A stretch of DNA of 22,423 bases, taken from positions 1 through 22,423 of the forward strand of contig CAJVPJ010000537.1 in assembly GCA_910592205.1 (NCBI GenBank), written 5' to 3'. The notes beneath the pieces were generated by a model. That model ran no database searches, had not been told where the DNA came from, and saw only the letters and a list, made by a program, of their open reading frames with translations. The DNA comes from Paraglomus occultum (Eukaryota; Glomeromycota; Glomeromycetes; Paraglomerales; Paraglomeraceae). Below are positions 5,198 through 21,377 of the stretch, one piece after another. How positions within the stretch are numbered: the first letter of the stretch is position 1; every line of letters begins with the position of its first letter. A program made the translations under genes and the position numbers.

Positions 5198-5682
5198 GAC
5201 TAATGAGTATTTAGCCTTACGGGGTGGTCCCCGTTGCTTCCCACAAGATTTCACGTGTCTCGTGGTACTCAGGATGAAATACGGAGAGTTATTGATTTCG
5301 AATACCAGGCTTTCACTGTCTTTGGCGTGGCTTTCCAACCACTTCTTCTATCACTAACCTTTGTAACTCCTAATGTATTTTCCTACAACCCCAACTTACA
5401 AACATAATTGGTTTAGGCTGTTCCCAGTTCGCTCGCCACTACTACGGGAATCATTATTTATTTTCTTTTCCTCCGGGTACTAAGATGTTTCAGTTCTCCG
5501 GGTTCACTTCTAAGTATCATGATACTTAGACCTTACCACATTACTGGTAATGGGTTGCCCCATTCGGAAATTTCCGGATCGTAGCCTATTTTCCGGCTCC
5601 CCGAAACTTATCGCAGGATATCACGTCCTTCCTCGTCTATTAGTCCCAAGTTATTCACCATACACTCTTAGTAACTTATATT
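2731..5682 (-). rRNA. rrl: 23S rRNA
   Basis: Hallmarks are visible along the whole length: the 5' domain with AAGGACGTGATA and CTGCGATAAG, the sarcin-ricin loop AGTACGAGAGGACC, and the 3' segment GAGCTAAGCCATACTAAT. The ends are placed by pairing ATAAGT near 5674-5679 with ACTTAT at 2734-2739, as in the normal terminal helix, so they are good to a few bases. A 12-bp processing stem flanks the gene (5703-5714 with 2703-2714), close to the TTGAAAACTGAACGC leader common in Firmicutes and Mollicutes. It is separated from 16S by about 3.5 kb with three protein genes and has its own promoter. Confidence 0.96.
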
Positions 5683-5791
5683 TCGGTAAAATCTTTTTTT
5701 TTGCGTTCAGTTTTCAAAGAAAGAGAGAGTAGAAAAAAATATACCTCTCAAAATTAAGCAGATAAAACAACCACTTATTTTTCAAAAGTAT

Positions 5792-5819
5792 ATTATAATT
5801 TATTTGTTTTATTTATCAA
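5792..5819 (-). promoter_or_regulatory. Promoter of the 23S-5S rRNA unit
   Basis: On the minus strand TTGATA (5814-5819) and TATAAT (5792-5797) are 16 bp apart, a near-consensus sigma-70-type promoter about 110 nt upstream of the mature 23S end. It lies just after the terminator-like hairpin of the preceding gene, so 23S-5S can be transcribed independently of 16S. Confidence 0.7.
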
Positions 5820-5873
5820 GTCTGGAAATTAACTTAACTTTTTAACTCATATATATTATTATTTTTAGGAAAA

Positions 5874-5904
5874 TTGGGAAAGGACGGGGGTACCACCCTC
5901 CCAA
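5874..5904 (-). terminator. Hairpin terminator after the glycine-zipper gene
   Basis: On the minus strand TTGGGA and TCCCAA enclose a GC-rich inner part with GGGT/ACCC-type pairing, followed by TTTTCC. It starts 30 nt after the stop codon of the gene at 5934 and just before the 23S promoter. Confidence 0.6.
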
Positions 5905-5933
5905 CTTTGTTCGACCAGAAAACAGGAAAACTC

Positions 5934-6806
5934 TTATTTTAAGTTATTCTCTATATAAGCCTCTATTTCTCTAACTTCATTATCATAACTTTCTTTTTGT
6001 GCCTGGGATTTTTCTTTTTCCCCTGACGTGGACGCCTCATTATCAATTATGGCTTGACAACTACAAGACTTTTCTTCCATTATAATTTTGTAATCCTCCA
6101 AGCAACCTTTGACTTCACTTTTTATTTTGACTGTTTCTGAATTTAATATTTTATCAGCAACGACCCCACTTACCAAACCAGTGGCCCCTCCACTTAAACT
6201 TCCAACAACGGCTCCAGTTATGGCGGCGGTTGGGACAAGTGATAATGACAAACCAAATGTATAAGGAGCAAGAGCAACCATTAAGCCAGCCCCAGCGGCT
6301 GCTCCACCGGCAGCTCCTATTCCAGCCCCACTGGCAGTTCCCGCAATTTTCCCTGTATTACTTTCAGTTTTAATTAAATGTCTTTGGAGGAATATTTCGG
6401 ACTCGTTCTCAATAGTAATCACTCCCTCCTCATCCTTTCTGGCTAATACTTCCTCGGCCACATAAAAATTATCTTCGGGCGTTAGTTCCAACTTTTTGTT
6501 TAACTCTTGGATAACGTCTAAAGTAATGGGCCTATTTTCATGCTTAAAACTATATCTTTCACATACTGGTTCTTTTCAATCTTCTGTAGAACCTCAATAC
6601 TTTTTTGGTTGGTCTAACTCAATAAAATTGCGATTTTGGGGAATTTTGACTTTATCCAAATACAATTGCGCCTTCTCAATTTTCGTCTCTAATTTTTGTT
6701 TCTCACCACTTTTCTCTGATTTGTTAACTTCATCTTCCATTATTTTTACATATTTTTCTAGGAAATTAATTAATTTTTCTAACTCTTGATTTACTATTTT
6801 TGGCAT
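5934..6806 (-). CDS. Glycine-zipper membrane protein of unknown function
   Basis: I do not recognise this gene. It encodes 290 residues when two TGA codons near 6550 are read as Trp. The N-terminal part is charged and coiled-coil-like (ELEKLINFLEKYVKIMEDEV). The centre, about residues 150-218, is a Gly/Ala-rich hydrophobic stretch with many GxxxG spacings (SGAGIGAAGGAAAGAG, then AAITGAVVGSLSGGATG), as in glycine-zipper pairs that insert into membranes. The C-terminal part is Glu/Lys-rich with a CSC motif. I chose the ATG at 6806; a TTG at 6830 would add eight residues. It has its own upstream structured element (6836-6930) and a downstream terminator-like hairpin, so it is probably a single-gene unit. 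It lies between the 16S and 23S genes. Function is open. Confidence 0.75.
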
Positions 6807-6835
6807 ATGTTTTGTTATTGTTGCTTGCAATCACT

Positions 6836-6930
6836 ACTAAGGCTTTTAAGCAAATTATATCTAACTAGGAATGATTGATTTAGATAGTTATGCTAGTTAG
6901 ATATATCTTTGCCGTTCTGACCATAGGCAC
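6836..6930 (-). promoter_or_regulatory. Structured leader element, copy A
   Basis: On the minus strand a 12-bp inverted repeat, ATATCTAACTAG and CTAGTTAGATAT, encloses a 24-nt loop and is followed by TTTGCTTAAAAGCC. The same layout recurs at 16630-16724 upstream of another accessory gene. TAACAT lies 9 nt upstream of the shared TATGG in this copy and 10 nt upstream in the other, so the element may begin the transcript. It ends about 30 nt before the ATG of the glycine-zipper gene. It could be a riboswitch-like or protein-binding leader, or a small RNA; the type is unknown. Confidence 0.55.
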
Positions 6931-6943
6931 ATTTATGTTAGAG

Positions 6944-6959
6944 GAATATTCTAATATTC
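6944..6959. promoter_or_regulatory. Perfect 16-bp palindrome, operator-like
   Basis: GAATATTCTAATATTC is made of 7-bp arms around a 2-bp centre. It lies immediately upstream of the TAACAT box and leader element of the gene at 5934-6806, a position suited to a dimeric repressor. In such AT-rich DNA chance cannot be excluded. Confidence 0.3.
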
Positions 6960-6997
6960 TATTTAACTATATATATAATTTTATAGCACTTTTCTCT

Positions 6998-7018
6998 GAG
7001 GACAAGGCACCAGTCCTC
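6998..7018 (-). terminator. Hairpin after the DUF6980-like gene
   Basis: GAGGAC and GTCCTC form a perfect 6-bp stem around a 9-nt loop, 44 nt after the stop of the gene at 7063. There is no strong T run, so termination is plausible rather than clear. Confidence 0.4.
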
Positions 7019-7062
7019 TTTCATAAATCCATTTTTTGCTCTCTGTTAAACAATATGACTCT

Positions 7063-7473
7063 TTAAATACCTCTTTTCTTTCACCATTCATCACCTTTAA
7101 ACTCTTTAGGAATTTTGGATCTTGTTTCTAAATCTCCATAATCTACACCACATTCTTTTTCTAAAATATTGAAAAATTTTTTTCTTAAACTACTAGGTAA
7201 TTTTTGTCCGCATCAAGGACAATAAAACACTAAATGAACAGCACCTCCATATTCCGCTTTAATATCAATAAAATATTCTCTAAATTTTGGGTCATAACCA
7301 AAATGCAATTCACATTCACCATCACCTTCTCCCAATAAATTTTCATACATTTCTCTACAATAGAAATCTTCGCAGTCAAGTTTAAGATATTTATCTACAT
7401 AAATATACTCGTCGCAATCCTCGTATACTTCACTGCGCTTAATATTGGTTTTTTTTCTAATTAATTCTGTCAT
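7063..7473 (-). CDS. DUF6980-like zinc-knuckle protein
   Basis: The protein has 136 residues when two TGA codons are read as Trp. The C-terminal half contains YCPWCGQKLP, then SLRKKFF, and near the end IPKEFKGDEWW. This order (CPWCG-K-LP-S, then IP-EF-S-D-WW) is what I know from small proteins of the DUF6980 type, whose function is unknown. The Trp in CPWCG is encoded by TGA and is among the best evidence for the code. The first half carries further Cys residues (CDEY, CEDFYC, GECEL) that could bind metal. It has an ATG start with no Shine-Dalgarno site. It is flanked by terminator-like hairpins on both sides, so it is probably transcribed alone, between the 16S and 23S genes. Confidence 0.75.
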
Positions 7474-7523
7474 TAAAATACAGGAAGTATAAAAAAATTG
7501 TATTTTTATTGACCTTTAAAAAA

Positions 7524-7552
7524 TTGGGGAGGGGGGAACCAACCCCTCCCAC
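7524..7552 (-). terminator. Intrinsic terminator after the gene at 7598
   Basis: On the minus strand GGGAGGGG and CCCCTCCC form a strong stem with a short loop, directly followed by AATTTTTT. This is a classic Rho-independent terminator, 45 nt after the stop codon of the upstream gene. Confidence 0.85.
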
Positions 7553-7597
7553 CTTTATCATTTTTTTCTTTTAATTTTTTATAATCTTTAAGCAACT

Positions 7598-8824
7598 TTA
7601 TTTTCTCTTATTCTTTTTCACCAGTAAATAGCCAATAATTCCGGCTGAAACCAAAATTACCGAACCACCAATTACATAAGGAAGTGAACCATTACCTTTA
7701 TTATCTTTGGCTGAGGAAACAGCAGTATTAAACTCATTCATTAACGCTTGCGATTTATTAACTTGCTCTTGTACCTCAGCCACCGAAATATTTTCACTAT
7801 CTTTAATTAACTTCTCATTTTGAACTATTTGCTGTTCCAACTTTTCACTACCTTTACCATTTATATTACGCTTTAACTTTTTCAATTCGTCTAATACTTG
7901 GGCTAATTGATTTTTAACTTCTGACAACTCTTCGCGTAATTCTTGGTTTTCTTTTCTCAAGTCGGAGTTGCTATTGGAGAAAGTTCCATATACTTTTTCT
8001 GCATATTGCGGAACTTTCCAAACCGTTTCATTAGTAGTTTTGTATTTTTCCCCACAATCATGACTACAAAAATGTCCTATTCCACTTACTTCTCTCACTG
8101 CATAATGCTCACCTGCTTTATCAAACATTTGTCCACACTGACAACGAACCCAGTCTGGTCGTCCGGTAACATTACCATTTTTCTGACCTTTTAAAGTTCT
8201 GATAGTATTCTCCGCATCTTTAATATCCTTTCTAAATCCTTCAATCATTTTTTCGTCTCTTGGTTGTTGACTTTCCAAATAATTCAATTTTTCCTTTCAT
8301 TCACCAATTTTTTCTTTCAAATCTTTTATTCTTTGTTCAGGAGTACTATCAAAAAACTCACCAAAATTAGGCTCTATTTTTTTCGGCTCAGGATTTTTGT
8401 TTAAATTACCTTTTCCACGGTATACTCAGCCAACCGTTCATTTATTAGGAGTACTTTCTCGGTAATGCTCATTTCACTTTATTCCATCCATAAAGTTCTT
8501 TCACTCGCCATCTCCAAAAATATCTGTTCCTCTATTTCCTTGGTAATCCTCACCAAAATGCCAATCTTGACGACTATAATGATAATCCTTTCCTTCCTCA
8601 AAATGACCTCTATATGTATAATCTTTTCCGTCGTAGGCTTCTTGGGTTATTCGCACTGGAACTCGGTCACCTCGAAACACACTTCTTAATTTATCGTTAT
8701 GAAAATTGTAGGTTTTTATATTCGGTTCATCAGTCGGCGAAACAGAATAATCTTCACCCTCTTTAAAATCTCTTAGTTTATTTTCTACTTCATTTTTATT
8801 AAATATACTGTTAAATCTGTTCAT
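7598..8824 (-). CDS. Zinc-finger coiled-coil protein with C-terminal membrane anchor
   Basis: I do not recognise a named family. Read with TGA as Trp, the gene is one frame of 408 residues; the standard code cuts it into pieces. The N-terminal part has four short repeats of the form (E/D/F)G(K/E)DY: EGEDYSV, DGKDYTY, EGKDYHY, FGEDYQG. A middle zinc-finger-like region has RCQC (Cys228, Cys230) and FCSHDC (Cys253, Cys257). A long coiled coil follows, then a single membrane helix near residues 382-401 and the basic tail KKNKRK. No signal peptide is seen, so the protein is probably tail-anchored with its bulk in the cytoplasm. It follows the (GA)n repeat and ends at a strong terminator. It shares the FCS-type finger and coiled coil with the gene at 21421. 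Confidence 0.75.
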
Positions 8825-8868
8825 ATTTGTATTGTATTTTTATTTTGTTTATGTTACTTTACTTATAA

Positions 8869-8870
<2 letters not shown>

Positions 8871-8913
<43 letters not shown>
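8871..8913. repeat. (AG)n dinucleotide microsatellite, about 21 units
   Basis: An uninterrupted run of AG repeats about 43 nt long lies 47 nt upstream of the start of the gene at 7598-8824. On the coding strand it is a TC tract, just downstream of a TATAAATATAAAAT segment that might be a -10 region. Such tracts change length by slippage and can vary expression. The assembled length may be imprecise. Confidence 0.95.
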
Positions 8914-8914
<1 letters not shown>

Positions 8915-9060
8915 GATTTTATATTTATAATTTGATAATCATCTTTCACCTATCGCCACTCTCACCCCCTTTCTACACTACTTAATATTATTTTAAGGTT
9001 TTGTCAACTAACCTCACACAAATTATCAACAATAACAACCATTTTCCCATTCACTTTTTC

Positions 9061-9112
9061 GACCAAAAACAATTAGGAGTAATTGGGATTAGGAAACTAA
9101 TCATTTTTGGCC
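9061..9112 (-). ncRNA. Three-way-junction fold in the 16S downstream spacer
   Basis: On the minus strand a 9-bp outer helix (GGCCAAAAA with TTTTTGGTC, one G-U pair) closes two perfect 6-bp hairpins, GATTAG-TTTC-CTAATC and CAATTA-CTCC-TAATTG. Only single bases separate the helices, so 52 nt are used almost completely. The G-U pair would be an A-C mismatch on the other strand, which favours a minus-strand RNA. It may be a processing, termination or regulatory element after 16S, or a DNA structure. There is no known family I can name. Confidence 0.5.
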
Positions 9113-9214
9113 TTTCCTTTAACTTTTTACTGATACTTTATCATCAATTATATTTTATATAAGAATAGTAAAATTACACTTCTAATTTGTATAGAATTAA
9201 CTTTCAAAACTAGA

Positions 9215-9221
9215 CAGAACC
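9215..9221 (-). other. 16S rRNA processing stem, start of the 3' arm
   Basis: The arm GGTTCTGTCTAGTTTTG (9205-9221) pairs over 17 bp with GAAAACTAGACGGAACC at 10789-10805, with one G-U pair. This is the usual RNase III-type stem that brings the two ends of pre-16S together. It fixes the outer limit of the mature 3' end, because the anti-Shine-Dalgarno sequence should lie between helix 45 and this arm. Confidence 0.8.
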
Positions 9222-9233
9222 TTTTTATAAAAT

Positions 9234-9838
9234 TTATTTTCCATCCGCAGATTCCCCTACGGATACCTTGTTACGACTTAACCCCAATTGCCAATCCTAC
9301 CCTTGTCAGCCGCATCCCTTACGGGTTAACAAACTGGTTTCAGGCATTACCGACTTTCGTGATTTGACGGGCGGTGTGTACAAGACTCGAGAACGTATTC
9401 ACCGCAACATGGCTGATTTGCGATTACTAGCAATTCCAACTTCATGGAGGCGAGTTGCAGCCTCCAATCCGAACTGAGGTTAATTTTTTGGGCTTGGCTC
9501 CCCCTCGCGGGTTGGCATCCCTTTGTGTTAACCATTGTAGCACGTGTGTCGCCCAAGGCATAAGGGCCATGACGACCAGACGTCATCCTTTCCTTCCTCC
9601 TGATTACTCAGGCAGTCGACTTAGAGTCCCCAACTGAATGCTGGCAACTAAGTCCAAGGGTTGCGTTCGTTATAGGACTTAACCATACACCTCACGGCAC
9701 GAACTGACGACGGCCATGCAGCACCTGTGTTCGGGTAACCTCCACTTGGTTTCCCAAGTTTTGCCGAACATGTCAAGCCTTGGTAAGGTTCTACGCGTCG
9801 TATCGGATTAAACCACATGCTCCAGTGCTTGTGCGAGT

Positions 9839-9873
<35 letters not shown>

Positions 9874-10395
9874 GTACTACCCAGGCGGAGTGCTTACCGA
9901 GTTATCTAGCGACACTGAGAATCAAGTTCCCAATATCTAGCACTCATCGTTTAGGGCGTGGACTACACGGGTATCTAATCCGTTTTGCTCCCCACGCTTT
10001 CGTGCCTCAACGTCAGTAACAGAATAGTTAACTGCCTTCGCCGTTATTGATGTTCTTCCATATATCTACACATTTTACCGCTCCACATGGAGTTCCGTTA
10101 ACCTCTCCTGCACTCGAGCCTGACAGTATTACCAGCTTCCACGAGGTTGAGCCTCGATTTCCCACTGCTAACTTATCAGGCCATCTACGCACCCTTTACG
10201 CCCAATAATTCCGGATAACGTTCGCCACCTACGTCTTACCGCGACTGCTGGCACGTAGTTAGTCGTGGCTTTCTCTGTGCGTACCGTCAAAACTGAACTT
10301 GCGTTCAGCCCTTCTTCCGCACTAACAGAAGTTTACAATCCGTAGACCTTCCTCCTTCACGTAGTATTGCTCCATCAGGGTTGCCCCCATTGTGG

Positions 10396-10427
<32 letters not shown>

Positions 10428-10757
10428 GGGACCGTGTCTCAGTTCCCTTGTGGCCATTCATCCTCTCAGACTGGCTACGCATCATAGTCTTGGTAGGCCA
10501 TTACCCCACCAACTAACTAATACGACTTATCCCTCTCAATTAGCGAGAATCTTGCGATCCCCTTTCATTACAAAAGTAACAAATGCGGTATTAGCCATGG
10601 TTTCCCATGGTTATCCCCCACTAATTGGCAAGTAAGATAAGCATTACTCACCCGTTCGCCGCTAGAAATAATATTGCTACTATTTCCCGCTCGACTTGCA
10701 TGTGTTAGGCATACTACCAACGTTAATCCTGAGCTAGGATCAAACTCTTAAAAAGAA
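9234..10757 (-). rRNA. rrs: 16S rRNA lacking the anti-Shine-Dalgarno tail
   Basis: Conserved segments run from AGAGTTTGATCC at the 5' end through CTCCTACGGGAGGCAGCAG, ATTAGATACCC and GTACACACCGCCCGTC to helix 45. Helix 45 (TCCGTAGG-GGAA-TCTGCGGA) keeps the GGAA loop that KsgA methylates in other bacteria. After TGGA, where ATCACCTCC is expected, the sequence is AAATAAATTTTATAAAAA up to the processing stem, so no CCTCC core exists. Other deviations are GTGCCAGCAGTCGCGGTAAGACG at the 530 region and GACTCGCACAAG near 920. Standard 27F, 515F and 1492R primers would each have mismatches. End positions are good to about 10 nt. Confidence 0.96.
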
Positions 10758-10788: not shown

Positions 10789-10805
10789 GGTTCCGTCTAG
10801 TTTTC
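10789..10805 (-). other. 16S rRNA processing stem, 5' arm
   Basis: GAAAACTAGACGGAACC in the 16S leader pairs with the 3' arm at 9205-9221. It lies about 30 nt upstream of the mature 5' end. Confidence 0.8.
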
Positions 10806-11831: not shown

Positions 11832-12200
11832 CTAAACCAAAGCAAAAACTACTCGTAAACTATTATCACCAACCCGATAATTTAATTTAGTAATCCGGCT
11901 ATAACCGCCTGCTCTATCCTTATATCTTTCTTTTAAGTCAGAAAATAGTTTGTCGAGCAACTTTTTCCCTTCTTTGTCCTCCAATTTTTTTTTGTTGACT
12001 AAATATTGCAAGGCCAAGCGCCGCGAATGTAAAGTGTCTTGTTTAGCATATTTAATGAGTTTGGCTAATAACTTAGTCAGACTCCGTGCCATTGGCAAAC
12101 TAGTCTCCACTTTTTCATACAAAATAGTATCAGCCACCAAATTATTAAGGACATGAGTGCGTCAAGCAGTGGTTTTACCAGGTTTATTAATATAGGACAT
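11832..12200 (-). CDS. rplQ: 50S ribosomal protein bL17
   Basis: bL17 lies near the polypeptide exit tunnel. The 122-residue product shows the family order: a basic start with KPGKTTAWRTHVLNNL, then an I-x-x-E-x-V-E-T-S segment, HSRRLALQYL, and a C-terminal G-G-Y-S-R-I-T-K-L. One TGA is read as Trp in TA-W-RTHVL; without it the true start would be lost. The ATG at 12200 follows TAATAATTATT and lies 5 nt after the rpoA stop, as expected for the last gene of the alpha operon. Confidence 0.92.
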
Positions 12201-12205
12201 AATAA

Positions 12206-12991
12206 TTATTTAATTTCAGCAGTCAATTTTTGTTTTTTTTCACTATTAATTAGTTCAGTGATGGTATTAAAAGAACTCTTTGATAACTCTAGAGTTTCTT
12301 GGATAGCCTTTTTTGGTGTAACAGCGCCATTAGTGGTAATAGTGAGAGTTAATTCTTCTTCCGTTTTTTCTTGACTAATCACTTGTGAATTTACTTTGAA
12401 ATTTACCAATCCACCTTTAATTGGGGAATAATCAGTATCAAAAGCAATAACATTATCTTCCTCAGAAAAATATTTTTTTTCTTGTTCCTCCTCTTCGTGA
12501 TAACCTCAACTTTTCTGAAAATAAAGTTTTATTTCTAGCCTTGGATTTTCTTTCTCACCAGTAGAGGCAGCCAAAGTAGCCAAATAAAGATCGGGATTTT
12601 TAATTTCTATATCTTTATCTTTTTGAAAATCTCCTGCCGTAATTACTTTTTCTTTTTTTTCTTTATTCTCAACACTCAATTCTAAGCAAAAAATTCCTTC
12701 TTTTTTTTTCTTTTCTTCCACAATAATCTTTTTGAGATTAATAATGAGATAACTGGTTACTTCTTTCACTCCTGCCAGGGTACTAAATTCACTTTCCACT
12801 GGACCGTCTCTATCACTAATTTTTGCTCCCAAAGCCGCTATTCCACCATTGTATTTCAGAAGAAAATGTCGCAAATAATTACCAAGAACTATTCCCATAC
12901 CCGAAGGCAGGTGGTGAAAAACAAAAGAAGAAGTATGAGGTTTGCTTTTGACAACTATTTCTTCTATTTCTAAATTATTAAGTAATGACAT
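12206..12991 (-). CDS. rpoA: RNA polymerase alpha subunit, N-terminal domain only
   Basis: Alpha dimers nucleate RNA polymerase assembly. The 261-residue product has the N-terminal-domain motifs: F-V-F-H-H-L-P-S-G-M-G-I-V-L-G-N-YLRHFLL, the F-S-T-L-A-G-V-K-E-V stretch, the second conserved block after KS-W-GYHEEEE, DTDYSP, and LTLTITTNGAVTPKKAIQET. A TGA read as Trp joins the two halves. The protein ends about 20 residues after that domain. The linker and helix-hairpin-helix C-terminal domain (about 80 residues, which bind UP elements and activators) are absent, and no remnant lies between here and rplQ, 5 nt away. It has an ATG start after AAATATAT. Confidence 0.93.
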
Positions 12992-12997
12992 ATATAT

Positions 12998-13426
12998 TTA
13001 TTTTCGTGGTGCTCTTCGGGGACGACAACCACCATGACGATTCGGAGTTCGGTCAGTTAATCCCTCCACATTCAAAGATTTTTCTTCCAATATTTTTTTT
13101 ATTACTGAATCTCGACCGGCACCAATTCCCTTGACTTGTATTTCGACATTATAAACCCCAAATTCGGCTGCTCTTCTAATTATTTCTTCGGCAACTTTTT
13201 CGGCCATGAAGGCAGTAGCTTTTTTAGTGCCAGTAACTTTTTTGTTATTACCGAGGTCGACACTTCCGGAACTAACTTGAGTTAAAACATCACCATTTTC
13301 TTTACTTAAATCAAGAATGGTGTTATTAAAACTAAATTTGCCGTGAATAATTCCTCTTCCTTCAGGAACTTTTTTGATTTTTTTGGTTTTGGTCTCTTTT
13401 TTGGAACTTTTTTTTACTGCCGTCAT
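12998..13426 (-). CDS. rpsK: 30S ribosomal protein uS11
   Basis: uS11 sits on the platform and contacts the E-site region of the 30S subunit. The 142 residues include a Lys-rich N-terminal extension, the FNNTILDLS core, GSVDLG, a short lineage insertion (NNKKVTGTKK), VKGIGAGRDS, and the C-terminal TDRTPNRHGGCRPRR. Gene order rpsM, small membrane protein, rpsK, rpoA shows rpsD is not here, as in Bacillus and mycoplasmas. The stop is 6 nt before rpoA. Confidence 0.95.
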   Translation of the reverse strand: MTAVKKSSKKETKTKKIKKVPEGRGIIHGKFSFNNTILDLSKENGDVLTQVSSGSVDLGNNKKVTGTKKATAFMAEKVAEEIIRRAAEFGVYNVEIQVKGIGAGRDSVIKKILEEKSLNVEGLTDRTPNRHGGCRPRRAPRK

Positions 13427-13444
13427 TCTATATATTAATAAATT

Positions 13445-13765
13445 TTAATTACTCAATACTTCTGATACTACTTTTTTTTTTTTTTTTTTTTCACCACTGC
13501 CCAATTCTCACCATCGATAAAAAATCAAAGAAAGCAAACCAAACACTAAAACATGAAATATGGCAAAACTAGCGAAGGGGTCACGACTGAAAAGCATATA
13601 AACTAAAAGCCACATGAAATTAAAAAAACACCACAACATTAAGAATTTTAAAATGCCTTTTCTCTGACCCAACCGAGAAAAAAACCACCCAGGAATTATT
13701 AAAGCGAAAGCAAGGAGAACTCAATCAGGGATAAAAATTGTGGTATTAGAGAATTGTATTGTCAT
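13445..13765 (-). CDS. Small three-helix membrane protein between rpsM and rpsK
   Basis: I do not recognise it. The frame is closed by two TGA codons under the standard code; with Trp it gives 106 residues. Three hydrophobic helices are clear: WVLLAFALIIPGWFF, FLMLWCFFNFMWLLVYMLF and FHVLVFGLLSLIFY. It ends with a short cytoplasmic-looking tail. A run of exactly 20 A on the coding strand (13472-13491) encodes a Lys stretch in the tail, and the frame agrees with that length. The ATG at 13765 is 35 nt after rpsM and the stop is 18 nt before rpsK, so it should be co-transcribed with ribosomal proteins. Slippage in the A run would change the last residues or the stop. Confidence 0.7.
13472..13491. 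repeat. Homopolymer of 20 T (A on the coding strand)
   Basis: This is an uninterrupted 20-base tract inside the 3' part of the small membrane protein gene. It is prone to polymerase slippage and sequencing error. Confidence 0.95.
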
Positions 13766-13800
13766 AATTAAAGGCATTTTTGCAAAAATCCTTCATGAGA

Positions 13801-14208
13801 TTATTTTGGAGTAGGAGCCTTTTTCTTATTAGCCACTGTTATTCTTTTATGACCTTTGGCCGTACGAGCATTGTGCCGTGTCCTCTGTCCGTGAATTGGT
13901 AAAGGATTAGGTTTGCGGGAACGCCTTAACCCTTGATAAGTACCAAGACGAATTTGCGCACTAATATTTTTTTGAACTTTTTCTTTTAATTCCCCCTCGG
14001 TCGGGATTTTTTTTACCCTCTGACTAATTAGATTAATTTGTTCCGAAGTCAAATCACGAACCTTAGCAAGAGGATTAATACTTAATTCTTCGAGAATTTG
14101 CCGTGAAGGAGAAGTTGGACCAAAACTTTTGCCAAAACCATAAATATAACTCAGAGCCACCCGAATATTTTTATTTTCAGGCATCTCCTTATTACCAATA
14201 CGAACCAT
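13801..14208 (-). CDS. rpsM: 30S ribosomal protein uS13
   Basis: uS13 in the 30S head contacts the P-site tRNA and uL5. The 135 residues show the N-terminal R-I-G-N-K-x-P-x-N-K start, the Y-I-Y-G-F-G helix-turn region, the R-x-G-T-Y-Q-G-L-R-R segment, and the tail PLPIHGQRTRHNARTAKG. It is slightly longer than usual because of an extra loop and a Lys-rich end. It has an ATG start after AATATAT, 23 nt downstream of rpmJ. Confidence 0.95.
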   Translation of the reverse strand: MVRIGNKEMPENKNIRVALSYIYGFGKSFGPTSPSRQILEELSINPLAKVRDLTSEQINLISQRVKKIPTEGELKEKVQKNISAQIRLGTYQGLRRSRKPNPLPIHGQRTRHNARTAKGHKRITVANKKKAPTPK

Positions 14209-14231
14209 ATATATTTATTATTTTTTACCTA

Positions 14232-14348
14232 TTAACCTTGTCTTTGATTATGTTTTCGATCCTTTTGACAATAAATGTATCTAACCCCCTCCCTGATAAT
14301 TACTTGACAATCGCGGCACATTATTTTAATCGAACTACGAACTTTCAT
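14232..14348 (-). CDS. rpmJ: 50S ribosomal protein bL36
   Basis: This 38-residue protein is the zinc-binding type: Cys11, Cys14, Cys27 and His33 are all present (CRDC ... YCQKDRKH), and it ends with HNQRQG, the family signature. It starts MKVRSSIK. It has an ATG start after ATATTATT, 13 nt after infA and 23 nt before rpsM, which is the classic order. Confidence 0.93.
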   Translation of the reverse strand: MKVRSSIKIMCRDCQVIIREGVRYIYCQKDRKHNQRQG

Positions 14349-14361
14349 AATAATATCTATT

Positions 14362-14601
14362 TTAAATATTTTCCTCAACTAGAGAAACAATTTGTCCTTT
14401 TCCTAAGTCTCCTAAAGTTATCTCTACCCTTACCCTATCTCCGACAACAATGTTAGCCCTCCTTCGCCCTCCTTTCGTGCGAAAACGAGCCGGCACGTCA
14501 GCATCGATTATTTTACCATTATCGCATTTAACTCGAAATTTTTTTTTATTTATTCATTCAATTACTTCACCCTGAGTGGAAAAAAAATCTTTATTCTTCA
14601 T
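14362..14601 (-). CDS. infA: Translation initiation factor IF-1
   Basis: IF-1 blocks the ribosomal A site during initiation. The 79-residue product has the OB-fold pattern: GEVIE-W-INKKKFRVKCDNG, then a basic segment ARFRTKGGRRR, then VVGDRVRVEITLGDLGKGQIV. One in-frame TGA, read as Trp, follows GEVIE. Identification is supported by position between map and rpmJ. The ATG overlaps the 3' end of map by 11 nt, which suggests translational coupling. IF-1 matters here because the ribosome seems unable to use Shine-Dalgarno pairing. Confidence 0.88.
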
Positions 14602-15328
14602 AATTAGTTATTATTTCAGCGCCTTTTTTATTAATATATATTGTATGTTCAAAATGAGCGTTCAAATAGCCATTTTTAGAAAATACGGTCCATTTATTAG
14701 GGGAAATATCCACCTCACCATCACCAATCTGAACTAATGGTTCAATACAAATAAACATTCCTTCTTTAATCACTTCCCCTTTATTAGAAATTTTATAATT
14801 AGGAATAAAGGGCTCTTGGTGAAGATTTTCCCCAATCCCATGTCCGCCATATTCTTTAATAGGATAATAACCACGAGTTCGTATGTATTTTTCTAACATG
14901 GCACCAATATCCTGAGTAGTAGTAACGCCGGGTTGAATATTTTGAATAGCAAAGTATAAACTATTTTTAGTTATATTTAGTAGACTTCTTTTTACTTCAT
15001 CTCCTGCTCCGACAATAGCAGTCAGAGCAGCGTCAGCGTGATAACCTTGGTAATTACAAGCTACATCAATCGAAACTAAATCACCTTCCTTGAAAATCCG
15101 CTCGTCAGGGATACCATGTGTTAATTCTTCATTAAGAGAAACGCAAATGGCGGCCGAAAACCCCTTGTAATCAAGAGTTGATGACTGAACTTTTTGTTCT
15201 TTCATTAATTGCCGAGCCAACTTATCTAAATCCTTTCCTGAAACACCAGGCTTGATTTCTTTTTTTAGTCTTTTTAAAATATTACTGACGGCTTGCCCGG
15301 CTTTTTTTATACATTCAAGTTTATTCAC
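14591..15328 (-). CDS. map: Methionine aminopeptidase, type I
   Basis: It removes the initiator Met from new proteins in the cytoplasm. The 245 residues are of normal length. All metal ligands are present: Asp88, Asp99, His163, Glu196 and Glu227, with the substrate-binding His71 in ELTHGIPD and the GGHGIG motif. No zinc-finger N-terminal extension is present. The start is GTG at 15328 (MNKLECIKKA), with A-rich sequence and no Shine-Dalgarno site. The 3' end overlaps infA. It is separated from the accessory gene upstream by 100 nt containing a terminator-like hairpin. Confidence 0.95.
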   Translation of the reverse strand: MNKLECIKKAGQAVSNILKRLKKEIKPGVSGKDLDKLARQLMKEQKVQSSTLDYKGFSAAICVSLNEELTHGIPDERIFKEGDLVSIDVACNYQGYHADAALTAIVGAGDEVKRSLLNITKNSLYFAIQNIQPGVTTTQDIGAMLEKYIRTRGYYPIKEYGGHGIGENLHQEPFIPNYKISNKGEVIKEGMFICIEPLVQIGDGEVDISPNKWTVFSKNGYLNAHFEHTIYINKKGAEIITNYEE

Positions 15329-15385
15329 TTTTTAACCCAATATCTAATCCGTAAAAAATTTTCTTATGCCAATTTAGAATAGATA

Positions 15386-15415
15386 TTAGGGGGAACAACT
15401 ATAACTCCCTCCTAA
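15386..15415 (-). terminator. Terminator-like hairpin before map
   Basis: On the minus strand TTAGG-GGGA pairs with TCCC-CCTAA with one bulged base and an 11-nt loop. It lies 13 nt after the stop of the gene at 15429. There is no T run. It resembles the other G-rich hairpins that follow accessory genes at 5874 and 7524. Confidence 0.45.
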
Positions 15416-15428
15416 TTTTTTATATCAA

Positions 15429-16112
15429 CTATTTCTTTTTCTTTACTCAAACTACCATCATGCTTATCAATAAAAGAACCAGAGAAATCGCACCCACTCC
15501 ATAATAAATATTCTTGGCGTTGTCATCTTTATTCCCTGTCTTTTGTGATTGATTTTGTTGTTGTTCGGTGTCTTTTTTGTCGGAATTAGAGGAATTTTCT
15601 TGATTTTGAGCCTGCTGCCCCAAGTCTTTTTTATTTTCCTCTGCTTCTTCTCGCCTTTTTTGATTTCTTTCGATAATTTGTTTTTTATCTTCTTCGCTTC
15701 GAGGTTCGTAATAACTTTCTTTAAAAAATCCATCTTGGCCTTTTCTTTCAACATAAATTTCTGTTCCATCAATATTTCCTTTAACTCCATAAACTAAACT
15801 TTCTTTGGACGGAACTTTAACATTTTTTCCTTCCTCCACTCACTTGGCAAACTCCTCCTTGCTTACTTCAATTAATTTTCTGTCTTGATTTTCAATTTGG
15901 AAGTTAACTGGTTGGTCGTTGCCAACAGTTTTTAAATCGCTTGCGGTTTTTTTTCTTGGAGTTAAAACGCCTCTTTTTTTGATTCCTCACTCTTCCTCTC
16001 AATGAAATGAAATGTAAATACCTTTTTCTTCAAAATATTTTTCGACTTCTTTCTCAGTGGGCTCGTGTCCAACGGGTCAAGGAAATTCTCTTTTATTTAA
16101 ATTTGCGTTCAT
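15429..16112 (-). CDS. Unknown protein with C-terminal membrane anchor
   Basis: I do not recognise this gene. Five TGA codons read as Trp give 227 residues. Residues 1 to about 120 look folded (FPWPVGHEPTEKEVEKYFEE, then GIYISFHWEEEWGIKKRG). A long, highly charged and Gln-rich low-complexity region follows (residues about 130-200). One membrane helix near 203-222 (IYYGVGAISLVLLLISMMVV) and the tail WVKKKK end the protein; the tail is only seen when the last TGA is read through. With no signal peptide it is probably tail-anchored. The ATG at 16112 follows AAAGTTATT, 10 nt after the gene at 16123, so the two should be co-transcribed between the adenylate-kinase-like gene and map. Confidence 0.72.
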
Positions 16113-16122
16113 AATAACTTTA

Positions 16123-16584
16123 TTAGTTTTTTCTGCATATTAGAGAATGAGAGATTTTTTTCCCGCCTTTATTCTCTATCTCTATTTTATATTCCCAATT
16201 GTTTCCAGTTTCATCTACCATTCTAGACAACTCTCGGGCTATTTCCCTTACCTCTGGACTTTTCATAGCATTCACAGCACTGGACGAAATGATTATGTCA
16301 GAAGAGGAACCAGAAGCAGTAATTACATTTGTAGGCGTAATTTTCCTTACTATACTAGTGTCACTACAAATATCATACTTATTTTCTTCATACTTGGTTC
16401 TATCTAAATTAATTTCTAAACAGTCTCCTACTTGATAGGTATTGAAAGGACGAGAATTAGGTACATTAATAAATATCCCAGTCCCATTTTTATAAATCAA
16501 CGTACCATCTAATACAATCATAATACAATCTCTACTTTCGACGTATTCTTTTTTTACAATTTTAAATTCTCTTTTTCCTAACAT
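16123..16584 (-). CDS. Unknown soluble protein
   Basis: This is a complete 153-residue frame with no TGA. I do not recognise a family. It looks like a beta-rich N-terminal half (KREFKIVKKEYVESRDCIMIV, GTGIFINVPNSRPF) followed by a Ser-rich turn (SGSSSDIIISSSAVNAM) and a helical part (SPEVREIARELSRMVDE). No membrane segment or signal peptide is seen. It is first in a two-gene unit with the anchored protein at 15429 and is preceded by the structured leader element copy B. It interrupts the usual adk-map adjacency. Confidence 0.7.
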   Translation of the reverse strand: MLGKREFKIVKKEYVESRDCIMIVLDGTLIYKNGTGIFINVPNSRPFNTYQVGDCLEINLDRTKYEENKYDICSDTSIVRKITPTNVITASGSSSDIIISSSAVNAMKSPEVREIARELSRMVDETGNNWEYKIEIENKGGKKISHSLICRKN

Positions 16585-16783
16585 TATTATTTTAAGTTCT
16601 TTAATTTTTATTATCTTTTCACCACCACAATGGCAATTAAGCCAATTTATATCTAATTAGGCAGCGATATTAGTTGGTTGTTATTCTAATTAGACATCTG
16701 CTATTCGTCTCCATATACTTTGACTATGTTATTAAATTTTTTTTATCTTTCAAGAACTTATATCTTTGTCATCTTAATTTATT
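16585..16783. other. Intergenic region with promoter and leader element
   Basis: This 199-nt gap inside an otherwise tight operon holds no gene. On the minus strand TTGAAA and TAACAT, 16 bp apart (near 16730-16757), form a plausible promoter, directly followed by the structured element at 16630-16724. Confidence 0.5.
16630..16724 (-). promoter_or_regulatory. Structured leader element, copy B
   Basis: On the minus strand TCTAATTAG and CTAATTAGA form a stem with a 25-nt loop, followed by the small hairpin TGGC-TTAAT-TGCCA. It aligns along its length with copy A at 6836-6930. In the main stem the C-G pair of copy A is a T-A pair here, so both partners changed together. It begins close to the predicted transcription start of the gene at 16123-16584. 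Confidence 0.55.
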
Positions 16784-17494
16784 TTATATATAAAAAAGAC
16801 TCCTAAGGTGAAAGTTTTTTACAAATCCTCAACTATTTTTAATAAGTTTCTTTGGATTTCACCAGTAAAAATTTCCTCTTTTTTTTTGGACCGTTAATTG
16901 AATGATAGAAGAAGTGGCAAGTTTATTTTCAGAAAGAAACTTTTTAATTACTAACTCAGTATTTTTTAAATGGTATTCAATAACATATTCACTATATTTT
17001 TTTATATCAGAAAGAGAAAAGTGGTATTCACTATCTTGCGGACAAATGAACTTCTCATTTTCTTTTATGGTCTCGTCTTTTTTATATATTTTTTCACAAA
17101 GAGGACAAATTAAATACTCTTTTTTTAGACTCAAAATTAGTTCATAGTTAGAAATATTGAGAAGAATGATATTATTTATTCTTTTTCCTTCCAGGGCTAA
17201 CTCAGAATTCAAAGCAGTAAATTGCTGCTCATTATGGGGATAATTAACTAATACTAATTTAGAATTGGGATTATGTTGAATAAATTCTTTAATTTCCTGG
17301 ATGTAATTAGCATCAATTAATTTAAGTATTTTTTCCTCATCCAAGGAAGTGATATTTTTTTCCTCAAGTTCTTTTTTTCTTACCTTTCCTATCTCAAAAA
17401 AATTTCCTTTTTCCCCTGTCGGAAAATTAAATTTATTAATAATGAGGGGGAACAACAACAAAATGACTTTTTGTGAATTATTTTTTGCTTCCAT
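16784..17494 (-). CDS. Degenerate adenylate kinase homologue, P-loop lost
   Basis: Adenylate kinase interconverts ATP, ADP and AMP. This 236-residue protein sits where adk belongs, after secY and towards map, and keeps parts of the fold: a first strand KVILLLF, NYPHNEQQFTAL in place of the G-F-P-R-T-x-x-Q motif, and a LID zinc site Cys130, Cys133, Cys151, Asp154, matching the Cys3-Asp site of Bacillus Adk almost residue for residue. The Gly-rich P-loop (GxPGxGKGT) after the first strand is absent, and the catalytic Arg residues of the core and LID are not recognisable. Two TGA codons read as Trp extend the C-terminus by 25 residues beyond the standard-code stop. It is probably inactive as a kinase. 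It is intact in frame, so it is not an obvious pseudogene. Confidence 0.7.
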
Positions 17495-17509
17495 ATAAAA
17501 TGTTTACTT

Positions 17510-18841
17510 CTATCTATTAGTTTTTATATATTTATACTTTGTTCTTACTTGGCGAACCAGGTCAACTCCGATATTAACGCTTCCAAATCAATTAAAAAAA
17601 GATAAAAAGGGGGAAGAGCCTTTAAATATATTATCAAAAATGATATTGAAAACTAGAATGATGAAATATCAAGAAAATATTATCTTATTAATTACTTTTC
17701 GTAATAAATTACGGGTCGAACGACCGGGAGCCAAATGGTTTATATAAATACCTCTACTGCGTAAGTCTTTACTCATTTCACCAGTTTTTCAAGGAGTGAC
17801 CTTCCGCATTTGTATTCACACTGCTAACCAGCGAAGAAAAAGGAGGAAGAGAAGAGCACCAATAATTCACCACTTTTTGTTCAAAAACCAATCTTTTAAA
17901 TTGTCGAAGTCGAAAATATATCTGGCATCATTAAGCAAAAAAAAAGGTCCTCAAAAAGACCTTCCGGCCGCATCCTCACTCTTCAAACTTTCCTGAAAAT
18001 TGTTTGTATCCATTCCTCTTTTTTCGTTTGCTCCCTTTCATTTTTCTCTTATACTACTAAAATCGAACCAATTCACTCCCGCTCTACGCATTAGGACAGC
18101 ATTGTAAATCAAGCCAATCAACTGGGACAACTGAATTAAAGGCATAAAACCCAGACTCAACCGAAATCCTAATTTTGACTTATTTTTTTTTAGTATTTTG
18201 CTATTTTGGCTATAAAGAGTATTAGTCTCGACTGGCGCTTCTCATTTTAAATTAGTTATTCAGATAAAGGACACCGTAATCAACAGCAGACAAAACATTG
18301 GTCCAAGATTATTCCAGTTTTTGGCAATTCAATCGTAAGGAATAAACACCGTAAAAAGTATTAGGTTGAAAGCATTACATATCCCATATTGGTTCATTAA
18401 CTGAATAAGCAATTCTAACAAACAACAATTAATTACAGTAACAATTAAACCCAAGAGCAGAATATTACCCACACTACCTTTGACATTATCTCAGTAAGTC
18501 ATGAAACCCATGAATAGAGAACCGAGAAAAATCAGAGTCCGGCTAATTCAAAGTTTTCATTTTTGAAATTTAACCCGGTCCATTTTGTCGGGATTTAAAA
18601 AAATATAAAAGAATTGTAAAACAAAATTGACTCCTAAATGGACACTAATACCGGAAAAAAATAGTTTGGTTGCTTTTACTTCTTCCTTAGCGCCTTCAAT
18701 CCCTTCCATTCACTGATGAGGAAAAGATATTTTTTTGGCTCCTAAAATGTAGACCAGCAAACCAAGCAAACTAGCCAAGCAAGCCAAAAAGAAAGCCTGG
18801 TACTGACGACTAACTCTTTTTTTTTTGATGCCACTTGCCAT
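17510..18841 (-). CDS. secY: Protein translocase subunit SecY, divergent
   Basis: SecY is the channel of the Sec translocon in the inner membrane. The gene is 444 codons in one frame only if 14 TGA codons are read as Trp; five TGG codons are also used. Conserved pieces are NQYGICNAFNLILF (the GIGNGISLIIF helix), LGFMPLIQLSQL, and the C-terminal loop and helices MSKDLRSRGIYINHLAPGRST and FNWFGSVNIGVDLVRQV. The rest is divergent, and the canonical first-loop plug motif is not evident. Length is normal. Position directly after rplO, with a 1-nt gap, supports the call. The ATG at 18841 has no Shine-Dalgarno site. Confidence 0.9.
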
Positions 18842-18842
18842 A

Positions 18843-19277
18843 TTACTTTTTCTTTTTCTCTACCACTTGAAAATTACCACCTACCTGGGTAATTTTTTCC
18901 TGAGCCGGCCGAGAAAAAGCGGCGGCTTTAATAGTCAAGTTTTTGGTAAAATTTCCTTCTCCTAATATCTTAACTGGAAACTTTTTTTGCGATAAATCTA
19001 CTACTTGTCCGGCTGTTATCTTTTCATCTTTTTCTAATTCTTCTAAATTAACTACCTGATAAGAAATTTTTTTGGCCTTAAATCCTCCTCCTCGCTTGGG
19101 AAAAGCCCGATAAACCGGAGTTTGTCCCCCTTCAAAACCAGGGCGAACATTACCACTTTTACGCGACCCTTGTCCTTTTTGACCGCGTCCACTTGTCTTT
19201 CCCCGACCGGAACCAATGCCACGACCAACAATCTTTTTCTTCTTTACAATAGCAGTTAAATAATTATTAGTATTCAT
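18843..19277 (-). CDS. rplO: 50S ribosomal protein uL15
   Basis: The 144 residues carry the Gly/Arg-rich N-terminal RNA-binding segment (GRGIGSGRGKTSGRGQKGQG), RPGFEGGQTPVYRAFPKRGG, and the C-terminal globular part ending KAAAFSRPAQEKI. It directly follows rpsE (11-nt overlap). The usual rpmD (uL30) between them is absent. Confidence 0.96.
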   Translation of the reverse strand: MNTNNYLTAIVKKKKIVGRGIGSGRGKTSGRGQKGQGSRKSGNVRPGFEGGQTPVYRAFPKRGGGFKAKKISYQVVNLEELEKDEKITAGQVVDLSQKKFPVKILGEGNFTKNLTIKAAAFSRPAQEKITQVGGNFQVVEKKKK

Positions 19278-19884
19278 ATTTTTTTCCAGTTAATTTATCC
19301 AGAGCCAGAAAGGCCGCACGAATAACATTGAGTTTATTTTGTCGGGAACCAATTATTTTGGCACTTACATCTTTAATTTCCAGGAACTTGAATAATCGAC
19401 TAAGGGCTCCGCTCGCCTTGATACCACTGCCCGGTGGAGTAGGCTTGAGGAAGAGTTTAGTGGCCTTATATTTTACCGTTATATCACGAGGAATGGTGCG
19501 GACAGGAGTGGGAAAATAAGATATTAATTTTTTCTGTCCTTGCCGCAAAGCCTTGCGAAAAGCAATAATAACTTCCTTACCACCGGCGTGTGCGAAAGCA
19601 ACCGCTTTTTTTTCTTCATCTTTTATCAAAACCAGACAAGTAAAACTAAACCTTCGACCGCCTTTTGTCACTTTTACTACCCGTTTGTTGGCCAAGGTTT
19701 CACTTTTTATATGAGAGCGGAATGCCCTTCTATCTTCCCTTTCTTCTTTTTTTGGTTCACTCGAAACCAGATTATTTTTTTCTTCTACCTTTTCTTTGCC
19801 ATTTACTTCACTACTTTTTTTTTCTTCCTGAGAAATACTTTTATCGTTTCCCAGAACCTGATAATTTTCTCCTACCTTCTCCAT
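19267..19884 (-). CDS. rpsE: 30S ribosomal protein uS5
   Basis: uS5 takes part in decoding accuracy and mRNA unwinding at the entry channel. At 205 residues it is longer than usual: about 60 N-terminal residues are a charged, low-complexity extension. The domain then follows in order: KVTKGGRRFSFTCLVLI, HAGGKEVIIAFRKAL, PTPVRTIPRDITVKY, PPGSGIKASGALSRLFKFL and GSRQNKLNVIRAAFLAL. The start ATG overlaps the stop of rplR by one base, so reading may be coupled. Confidence 0.95.
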   Translation of the reverse strand: MEKVGENYQVLGNDKSISQEEKKSSEVNGKEKVEEKNNLVSSEPKKEEREDRRAFRSHIKSETLANKRVVKVTKGGRRFSFTCLVLIKDEEKKAVAFAHAGGKEVIIAFRKALRQGQKKLISYFPTPVRTIPRDITVKYKATKLFLKPTPPGSGIKASGALSRLFKFLEIKDVSAKIIGSRQNKLNVIRAAFLALDKLTGKKYEY

Positions 19885-20246
19885 TAAAAATTAATTCCTA
19901 GTTTTCGCATTTCCTGGCAAAAGACCTCCATTTTTCCATGATAAGGGCGACCATTGCGGTCAAAAATGATTTTTTCTTTATTCTCTTTCTTCAATTTCTC
20001 AGCAAACAATTCACCAAGCTTCTTAGCATAATCTTTATTCTTACGAGAGTAATTATCCTCACTAAAATCTTTTGTGGAAGCCGAGGTAAGAGTATTACCT
20101 ACTGTGTCATCGATGGCTTGCACGCGTAAATAACGATTTGATTCACTCAAAACCACTCGTGGTCTTTCTGAGGAACCCTTAATCAAAGCACTTCTTCTTT
20201 TACGGACCTTCCGGCGAATTTTTTTATCGATAGATGTCGTCGTCAT
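19884..20246 (-). CDS. rplR: 50S ribosomal protein uL18
   Basis: uL18 binds 5S rRNA. The 120 residues show RRKVRKRRSALIKGSSERPRV at the N-terminus, the VFxSNxxIYxQ-like segment (VVLSESNRYLRVQAID), and the C-terminal FDRNGRPYHGKMEVFCQEMR. The ATG follows AATAATATAT, 5 nt after rplF. Confidence 0.95.
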   Translation of the reverse strand: MTTTSIDKKIRRKVRKRRSALIKGSSERPRVVLSESNRYLRVQAIDDTVGNTLTSASTKDFSEDNYSRKNKDYAKKLGELFAEKLKKENKEKIIFDRNGRPYHGKMEVFCQEMRKLGINF

Positions 20247-20251
20247 ATATA

Positions 20252-20785
20252 TTATTTATTTAAAGATTTTCCAGCTTTCAGTTTAATAGTTTCTGCTTCG
20301 CCTAAATAGTAAATGCCTTTGTCCTTCTTATAAATGCTGGGCAGGCGAAGGCTTCGAATAGCGGCTGCAAAACTGGTAACTTTCTGCTTATCCTTTCCCC
20401 TAATTATTATTTTATTACCTTCTACTTTTACTTCTAATTCGCTAGGAATAGCAACATGGTTAAGATGAGATTTTCCCAACGAAAACTCTAATTTTCCTTC
20501 TTTTAAGGATACCTTATACCCAACTCCCTTTACTTCCACAACACTCTCATGACCTTCCACCACCCCCTTTATCAGATTAGAAATTAAAGAATTATAAGTA
20601 CCAGCCAAAGCCGAGTTAACTGACTTAGTGCTTAACTTATTTTCTTGATTAGTAATTTCCAAGTTAGAAGGAATGATTAAATCTTCACTTTTTCCTAATG
20701 GCCCTTCGGCAGAAATTATCCCCCCCTCTAAATTAATTTTTACCCTTTCTGGTATTGAAATAATTCGGTTAGCGATTTTTGACAT
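20252..20785 (-). CDS. rplF: 50S ribosomal protein uL6
   Basis: uL6 lies near the factor-binding site of the 50S subunit. The 177 residues have the two repeated domains and the signatures VEVKGVGYKV, LSLGKSH-type FSLGKSHLNHV, IIIRGKDKQKVTSFAAAIR and YKKDKGIYYLGEA. Length is normal. The ATG lies 3 nt after the rpsH stop. Confidence 0.96.
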   Translation of the reverse strand: MSKIANRIISIPERVKINLEGGIISAEGPLGKSEDLIIPSNLEITNQENKLSTKSVNSALAGTYNSLISNLIKGVVEGHESVVEVKGVGYKVSLKEGKLEFSLGKSHLNHVAIPSELEVKVEGNKIIIRGKDKQKVTSFAAAIRSLRLPSIYKKDKGIYYLGEAETIKLKAGKSLNK

Positions 20786-20788
20786 AAT

Positions 20789-21179
20789 TTAACTAATAAA
20801 AAAGATAACTTTTCCTCCTTGTTTTTTTTCCAAGGCTTCGCGATGAGTTAATAATCCAGCAGGAGTAGAAATAAAATAAACACCACGACCACGACAATGT
20901 TTTTTTATTTCTTCAACTCTTAAATGAATATGTTGCGAAGGCTTAGAAATTTTTTTTACTTGGTGGATACGGCTATCTTGATTGCTGTATTTAATATCAG
21001 CCTTGATTTTCCCATTTTTTTTCGTCAAATCAACATTTCGAAAGAAAGTTACTTTCTTCTAACTTTTTACAGATTTGCCATTTAAAAGAAGAGTAGGGAA
21101 AAACAACTGTTTTATAACCCCGCAGGTTGGCATTGCGGATAACTGTCAGCATATTAGCGACTGGGTCGGATAGTGTCAT
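20789..21179 (-). CDS. rpsH: 30S ribosomal protein uS8, one-base frameshift
   Basis: uS8 binds the 16S central domain and is essential for assembly. The first part (SDPVANMLTVIRNANLRGYKT) and the last part (ISTPAGLLTHREALEKKQGG) are both clear uS8, but they are in different frames. The total span is 391 nt, one more than a multiple of three. Dropping one base in the run AACTTTCTTTCGA near 21041-21047 joins KLEESNF to FRNVDLTKKNG, matching the G-F-I-R-D-V-E-F region of Bacillus uS8, and gives 129 residues, a normal length. The shift lies beside a perfect palindrome (AAGAAAGTTACTTTCTT). It may be an assembly error, a real mutation or +1 frameshifting; an internal TTG at 21028 would give only the C-terminal part. 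Confidence 0.85.
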
Positions 21180-21191
21180 ATTAATATTATT

Positions 21192-21377
21192 TTACCAAGA
21201 ACCTTTTCGTCAGCCTGGCAACAGACCTTCATAAATTTGCTTGCGAAAATCGATACGACAAAGCAGGGTATCCCTAAAAACTGACCCCGAACGACCACAG
21301 ATTCGACAACGAGTATATTTTCTACTAGAATATTTCGGAGTTTTACGAGCTTTAATAACCAAGGCTTTGCGTGTCAT
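21192..21377 (-). CDS. rpsN: 30S ribosomal protein uS14, short zinc-type
   Basis: The 61-residue length and Cys24, Cys27 and Cys40 mark the short zinc-binding form. The fourth ligand, normally Cys in L-C-R-I-C, is Asp43 here (LCRIDFRKQ), so the site would be Cys3-Asp. It ends LPG-W-RKGSW, where a TGA gives the Trp; relatives have a hydrophobic residue there (PGVKKASW). The ATG at 21377 follows AAAATATAT with no Shine-Dalgarno site at normal spacing. Upstream lies an unrelated gene instead of rplE. Confidence 0.93.

Follow-up and report, generated by a model that had tools for sequence, protein, structure and literature searches.

The 16S rRNA gene in a stretch of DNA of 22,423 nucleotides (the whole of which we call the window) ends without the anti-Shine-Dalgarno (anti-SD) core CCTCC, and our analysis confirms this observation, first made in an initial annotation. 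With considerable confidence, we interpret the window as a contig of a mycoplasma-related endobacterium (MRE) in which the core has truly been lost, the Shine-Dalgarno (SD) motif has been lost as well, translation would start free of SD pairing on A/U-rich leaders, and the loss probably took place separately from that in the hemotropic mycoplasmas (hemoplasmas). The window adds a genuine new example to a phenomenon already known, and for its lineage no report was found in the literature: the search, which covered papers outside subscription, returned no account of the anti-SD state of MRE, and the word 'Shine' is absent from the main text of the MRE genome papers examined.

The 3' end of the 16S rRNA gene

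The gene is full length (9229..10755, minus strand; Rfam RF00177, 1447.6 bits, model positions 1-1533). Along the minus strand, helix 45 with its GGAA loop and the TGGA that ends at 9240 is intact (TCCGTAGGGGAATCTGCGGATGGA, 9263-9240), as is seen both by direct reading and in the Rfam alignment, which shows a paired stem. It is followed, where the anti-SD tail would stand, by an 18-base tail of A and T only (AAATAAATTTTATAAAAA, 9239-9222), and then, from 9221, by the 3' arm of a pre-16S leader-trailer stem (GGTTCTGTCTAGTTTT, 9206..9221), which was recognized by direct reading, by a repeat finder and by RNA duplex prediction. In the RF00177 alignment, the consensus after GGA, UcACCUCCUUu, is set against AAAUAAAUUUU, and the two agree at no more than a single A and the final three U. 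The sequence CCTCC is absent from the 60 bases after TGGA. The initial annotation had described this arrangement at 9205-9262, with an intact helix 45, an A/T-only tail reaching to the stem and no CCTCC core wherever the mature 3' end can lie, and its description proved accurate, coordinates included.

The 5' arm of the same stem lies in the 16S leader (10789..10804, minus strand; repeat finder and RNA duplex prediction). When arms of 41 bases from the leader (10823-10783) and the trailer (9227-9187) were paired, the duplex reached -34.6 kcal/mol; shuffling the leader 500 times gave -9.5 kcal/mol on average and -20.4 kcal/mol at best. Without interruption, the stem extends over at most 16 pairs (10804-10789 with 9221-9206), including a G-U pair, with more pairs past single mismatches and interrupted pairing going on further 3'; the processing stem proposed earlier thus exists, with 16 uninterrupted pairs in place of the 17 bp assigned to it. 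Because the pairing of leader and trailer is far stronger than that of the shuffles, the trailer belongs to this 16S, and therefore the mature 3' end must fall in the core-less stretch.

It is very improbable that the tail is an artefact of assembly or sequencing, such as a join directly after helix 45. Single-base errors are possible on this contig, as the S8 reading frame breaks at a run of eight A, but no error of that kind could make an 18-base tract of A and T out of ATCACCTCC; moreover, the trailer pairs with its own leader, and the missing SD motif at the genes is an observation independent of the tail. In addition, the 16S and protein trees described below give the window the same neighbour, genome G188, at support values that range from weak to fair, and this agreement speaks against a chimera. 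The earlier judgement that truncation or chimerism is unlikely is borne out by this agreement and by the comparison of the stem with its shuffles.

Origin and gene content of the contig

The assembly around the window comprises 32.3 Mb in 1408 contigs and was handled as intron-bearing, and the contig was therefore taken as a bacterial part of a eukaryote assembly. By ribosomal protein S11, for which a search found 104 relatives, the closest sequence relatives are MRE: identity was 83% over 85% of the query for DhMRE, 66% over 92% for GvMRE and 60% over 100% for Candidatus Moeniiplasma, all three being endobacteria of arbuscular mycorrhizal fungi. The matches that scored above these were metagenome proteins, and others came from metagenome-assembled genomes of Mycoplasmataceae and Spiroplasmataceae and from records filed under Gigaspora, Cetraspora and Racocetra. 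An S11 search at E 1e-24 across the 320 genomes of the order of comparison genome G132 (presumably Mycoplasmatales, in what is presumably the class Bacilli, both names being assigned in part from the TGA codons in S11; hereafter the comparison order) gave no match, and nothing was found when viral contigs were searched for the same 16S end and for S11, so that these collections yielded no close relative among MRE.

The second trait shared with MRE is the reading of UGA. The 22 genes of the window contain 43 in-frame TGA and 21 TGG codons, and many of the frames stay open only when TGA is taken as a sense codon. Decoding of UGA as glycine was considered and judged the poorer fit, as the L17 profile favours tryptophan by 3.8 bits (96.1 versus 92.3 bits), though one S14 model prefers glycine (44 versus 40.1); rpoA and the best S14 model score the two nearly equally. 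Judged from these profiles, in-frame UGA fits tryptophan best (table 4), as in MRE, for which an excerpt of PMC10507103 gives table 4 as the code in use. A search of the assembly for the RF-1 domain returned three matches, one in an open frame of 347 amino acids and two in shorter frames, a result that would be consistent with the bacterium having just one release factor. This sequence evidence is best explained if the window is a contig of an MRE (Mollicutes) and entered the assembly along with the DNA of a eukaryotic host. This host is probably a fungus, judging from the hosts of the relatives and from an excerpt of PMC11423566 that describes MRE contigs hidden within fungal assemblies.

On the minus strand, positions 11832..21377 hold a block with the genes for S14, S8, L6, L18, S5, L15, secY, an adk-like gene, map, infA (so that IF-1 is encoded in the window), S13, S11, rpoA and L17, together with three unnamed frames (NCBIfam, Pfam). 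The names of S13, infA, map, L15, S5, L18, L6, S11 and the two S8 pieces are based on NCBIfam, several of them on scores below the curated cut-off; L17, S14 and rpoA were named by NCBIfam profile matches, SecY and S15 by Pfam, and adk by a weak match to Pfam ADK (18.7 bits, cut-off 26.8) plus the gene's place. The S8 gene (20789-21179, minus strand) changes frame at the run of eight A, two overlapping frames matching the halves of the S8 model; the change may reflect sequencing error, decay or slippage at poly(A). SecY (17510-18841, minus strand) is very diverged, with 51.7 bits to Pfam SecY and 14 in-frame TGA codons; it had no NCBIfam match at E 0.001 and, as a query, found no SecY in the 60 comparison loci.

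Protein genes also lie among the ribosomal RNA genes. The 16S and 23S genes are about 3.5 kb apart (5682-9228), and between them lie three open frames on the same strand (5934-6830; 7063-7473, DUF6980; and 7598-8824), so that protein genes split the rRNA cluster; a long GA microsatellite (8871-8912) stands just upstream of the 7598-8824 gene. Behind the rRNA genes, between 5S rRNA and tRNA-Arg, is a gene for a chloramphenicol phosphotransferase-like protein (1946-2551, minus strand; Pfam CPT, 111.9 bits), which is followed by lon.

Shine-Dalgarno motifs and start regions

An SD-like 4-mer was defined as GGAG, GAGG or AGGA at -20 to -4, with expectations taken from shuffles. In the window it occurs at 2 of 22 genes, against 0.97 expected (0.91 in a repeat), and at 2 of 25 (0.96 expected) when the frames of lon (start 1793), 2551 and 22398 are added; starts in the 11832..21377 block mostly lack it, the two exceptions being S5 and the frame at 13445. 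The comparison set consisted of 60 loci around S11, hand-chosen from the comparison order and its class, with at most 12 orthologous genes each. For the 38 other genomes of the order, the 4-mer was present at 215 of 361 orthologous starts (89.3 expected), and for 14 genomes outside it at 113 of 155 (46.5 expected), the starts here coming solely from an automatic start finder and those of the window having been checked, and the 16S tails having been read for a minority of the genomes. Among the 38, four loci were low exceptions (L104, L126, L142 and L146; 1/6 to 2/11). On the same 12 genes, the checked starts of the window gave 1/12, with rpoA, adk and S5 mended, and fully automatic start finding gave 0/11. 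Fisher tests against 215/361 yielded p 2.4e-6 for the 22 window genes, which differ from the comparison gene set, and p 4.5e-4 for the 12, genes being treated as independent in both. A low G content upstream reduces the chance occurrence of SD motifs, so the contrast depends on how the window compares with other genomes.

Pairing energies were compared as well. Leaders of the window pair with a canonical tail at -0.59 kcal/mol, slightly better than the -0.03 of shuffled leaders, which counts somewhat against the reading of a loss; the gain is far smaller than that of the 38 other genomes, for which the values are -5.54 and -3.11 kcal/mol. A new tail pairing with a new leader motif was also considered and rejected, as the leaders reach -2.19 kcal/mol with the window's own tail versus -2.06 when shuffled, no gain over chance. 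SD-like sequences are thus lost upstream of the genes in the window, a statement about these genes and not the whole genome, and this lack of enrichment supports the earlier reading of the 16S as one devoid of an anti-SD. As the SD motif has gone along with the anti-SD core, the pairing system as a whole appears to have been lost, as shown for the window genes.

The start regions have features of their own. A makes up 49% of the leaders and T 35%. Start regions fold less strongly than gene interiors (-0.90 kcal/mol, n=22, versus -3.76 kcal/mol, n=330; one-sided p 1.6e-7), which is partly due to base make-up. In our reading, the sequence that follows helix 45 has decayed into a stretch of A and U, so that the anti-SD core was lost and, along with it, the SD motif upstream of genes. 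Initiation would then most likely depend on 30S subunits that bind weakly structured, single-stranded A/U-rich leaders, and AUG would be picked through initiator tRNA pairing, initiation factors and accessibility. Such a route has been proposed for other SD-poor bacteria.

A second, intact 16S gene in the bacterium, missing from the assembly, would also account for a core-less copy, and some genomes of the comparison order have two or more 16S ends. We nevertheless regard it as a very slight probability. A family search of the 32.3-Mb assembly found one 16S among the best 5 of 208 candidates, which were scored, and a nucleotide search, for which the query was the 16S as far as helix 45, found no second full 16S among the best-scored candidates, its matches being the window itself and three others of 44, 53 and 38 bases. 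A further copy carrying ATCACCTCC, which would have overturned the initial annotation, was thus not found in the assembly, and the one full 16S found in it lacks CCTCC, as in genomes classed as non-anti-SD. Moreover, the window genes do not use SD, which would leave an intact copy few motifs to pair with.

One loss or two

Loss of the core together with SD was reported by Lim and colleagues (Lim, Furuta, Kobayashi 2012) for 15 of 1,182 genomes (PMC3522020); excerpts of later surveys give 128 core-less organisms, variant cores being counted too (PMC6107228), and 112 SD-scarce organisms (PMC10783764). Besides hemotropic mycoplasmas and symbionts, these sources, as far as excerpted, list many Flavobacteriia, some of them free-living (PMC10783764, PMC3522020, PMC6107228), which contradicts the earlier remark that losses are known mainly in extremely reduced genomes. 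Hemotropic mycoplasmas are the only Mycoplasma reported by Lim and colleagues to lack the core (PMC3522020), and the excerpted list in PMC10783764 includes M. haemocanis (Mycoplasma haemocanis) and M. ovis. Like the window, they are Mollicutes, host-bound and, in the parts of the sources available, endowed with a 16S lacking CCTCC and genes lacking SD (PMC3522020, PMC10783764); they differ in their tail, in their place in the protein tree and in living in red blood cells, as opposed to the presumed fungal host of the window.

In the comparison order, a search pattern could read the helix-45 end in 252 of 320 genomes, leaving 68 without a readable end. In 7 of the 320, position eight after TGGA carries a base other than C, and three further genomes (G376-G378) have C there yet no CCTCC (tail TAATCTTC). 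At least 10 of the 252 readable genomes (G369-G378) therefore lack the core, and the 16S tree unites these ten in a single, fully supported clade. The whole core was checked in the tree genomes, of which 26 of 35 have TGGANNNCCTCC; the nine that do not are eight members of the core-less clade and G134, which yielded no readable end. This clade presumably represents the hemotropic mycoplasmas, since these are the only Mycoplasma that Lim and colleagues reported without the core. Six of these hemoplasma-like genomes have an SD-like 4-mer at 8 of 46 starts (6.0 expected) and two sister genomes at 4 of 23 (3.2 expected), so that 8 of the 10 clade members taken together have 12 of 69 (9.2 expected), a frequency near chance. 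One of the six, L095, has 5 SD-like starts out of 9 (1.6 expected) though it lacks the core, and therefore the two losses need not coincide everywhere.

A collection of 84,980 species was scanned for six A/T bases directly after helix 45, a pattern that misses tails such as AAACTTTT, and yielded 27 stretches, none of them labelled Mollicutes. Genuine A/T tails were found in two Shikimatogenerans chromosomes (L019, L025) and in the complete Parcubacteria genome KatS3mg097, with one 16S found in each. Two others (L015 and L024) look like organelle contamination, as the same tail occurs in bins labelled as different phyla. Genomes labelled Patescibacteria, Kaiserbacteria or Parcubacteria (L009, L018, L021, L022 and L026; one complete) have A/T for at least the first six bases after TGGA, and CCTCC does not occur within the next 60. 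Carsonella, Hodgkinia and Nasuia are named as non-anti-SD symbionts in the excerpt of PMC10783764. They and Shikimatogenerans resemble the window in lacking CCTCC, and the two Shikimatogenerans chromosomes also in their A/T-rich tails after helix 45, but they belong to other phyla and represent clearly separate losses.

Within the Mollicutes, the question of one loss or two was addressed with trees. The protein tree was built from 12 proteins (eight ribosomal proteins, rpoA, infA, map and adk; 1643 columns, LG+C20) of the window and 35 of 59 genomes. In it, the window, whose branch is very long (2.26), is the neighbour of G188 (57/85) and stands outside a fully supported group (100/100) of 15 rows that holds the eight hemoplasma-like rows and seven other members with CCTCC. 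The long branch and the odd letter make-up of nine rows, G188 included, make the window's exact place unsure. An earlier protein tree of the window and 59 genomes under a simpler model also joined the window with G188 (support 95), as did the 16S tree (84/84). The latter held 33 of 48 rows, 15 presumed near copies having been dropped by hand and 3 of the 50 loci lacking a full 16S, and the nearest relatives of the hemoplasma-like clade were absent from it.

A single old event in the Mollicutes, with the loss inherited from an ancestor common to the window and the hemotropic mycoplasmas, might be expected to leave core-less genomes in one clade, as the ten or more of the 252 readable genomes do, and with the 16S alone a clade of the window and the ten core-less genomes is not rejected (AU test, p 0.215). 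The 12 proteins, however, reject the window's falling within the hemotropic mycoplasmas, at p 1.1e-7 with six hemoplasma-like genomes, a group named before the tree was made, and at p 0.0015 with eight hemoplasma-like rows, a group named after the tree had been seen; this is so although long branches tend to attract each other. The hemoplasma-like rows moreover share their 15-row group with seven members that have kept CCTCC, and the tails differ, being AAATAAATTTT in the window and, for example, AAACTTTT, TAACTTTA and TAATCTTC in the core-less clade. A shared loss is thus improbable, though less so than either an artefact or a hidden second 16S. G188 (L104) carries the core (TGGATCACCTCC) and has few SD motifs (2 of 11, 1.0 expected), so that weak SD use may have preceded the loss of the core. 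On the evidence of the 12 proteins rather than of the 16S alone, the anti-SD loss in the window was probably separate from that of the hemoplasmas and occurred in a lineage in which SD use was already weak. Our judgement is evenly divided on a wider generalization, according to which the MRE of fungi as a lineage would have lost core and SD apart from the hemoplasmas, and all of their translation would be SD-free, on open A/U-rich leaders that often end in AAATATATG.

The window therefore likely represents a second anti-SD loss inside the Mollicutes, beside relatives that keep the core, and this proximity makes the order of events, SD motifs first and then the core, testable. According to an excerpt of PMC10507103, the MRE-bearing fungus Benniella erionia GBAus27B is in culture and a cured sister strain exists. 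This culture would be open to work on SD-free initiation, provided that its MRE has the trait as well.
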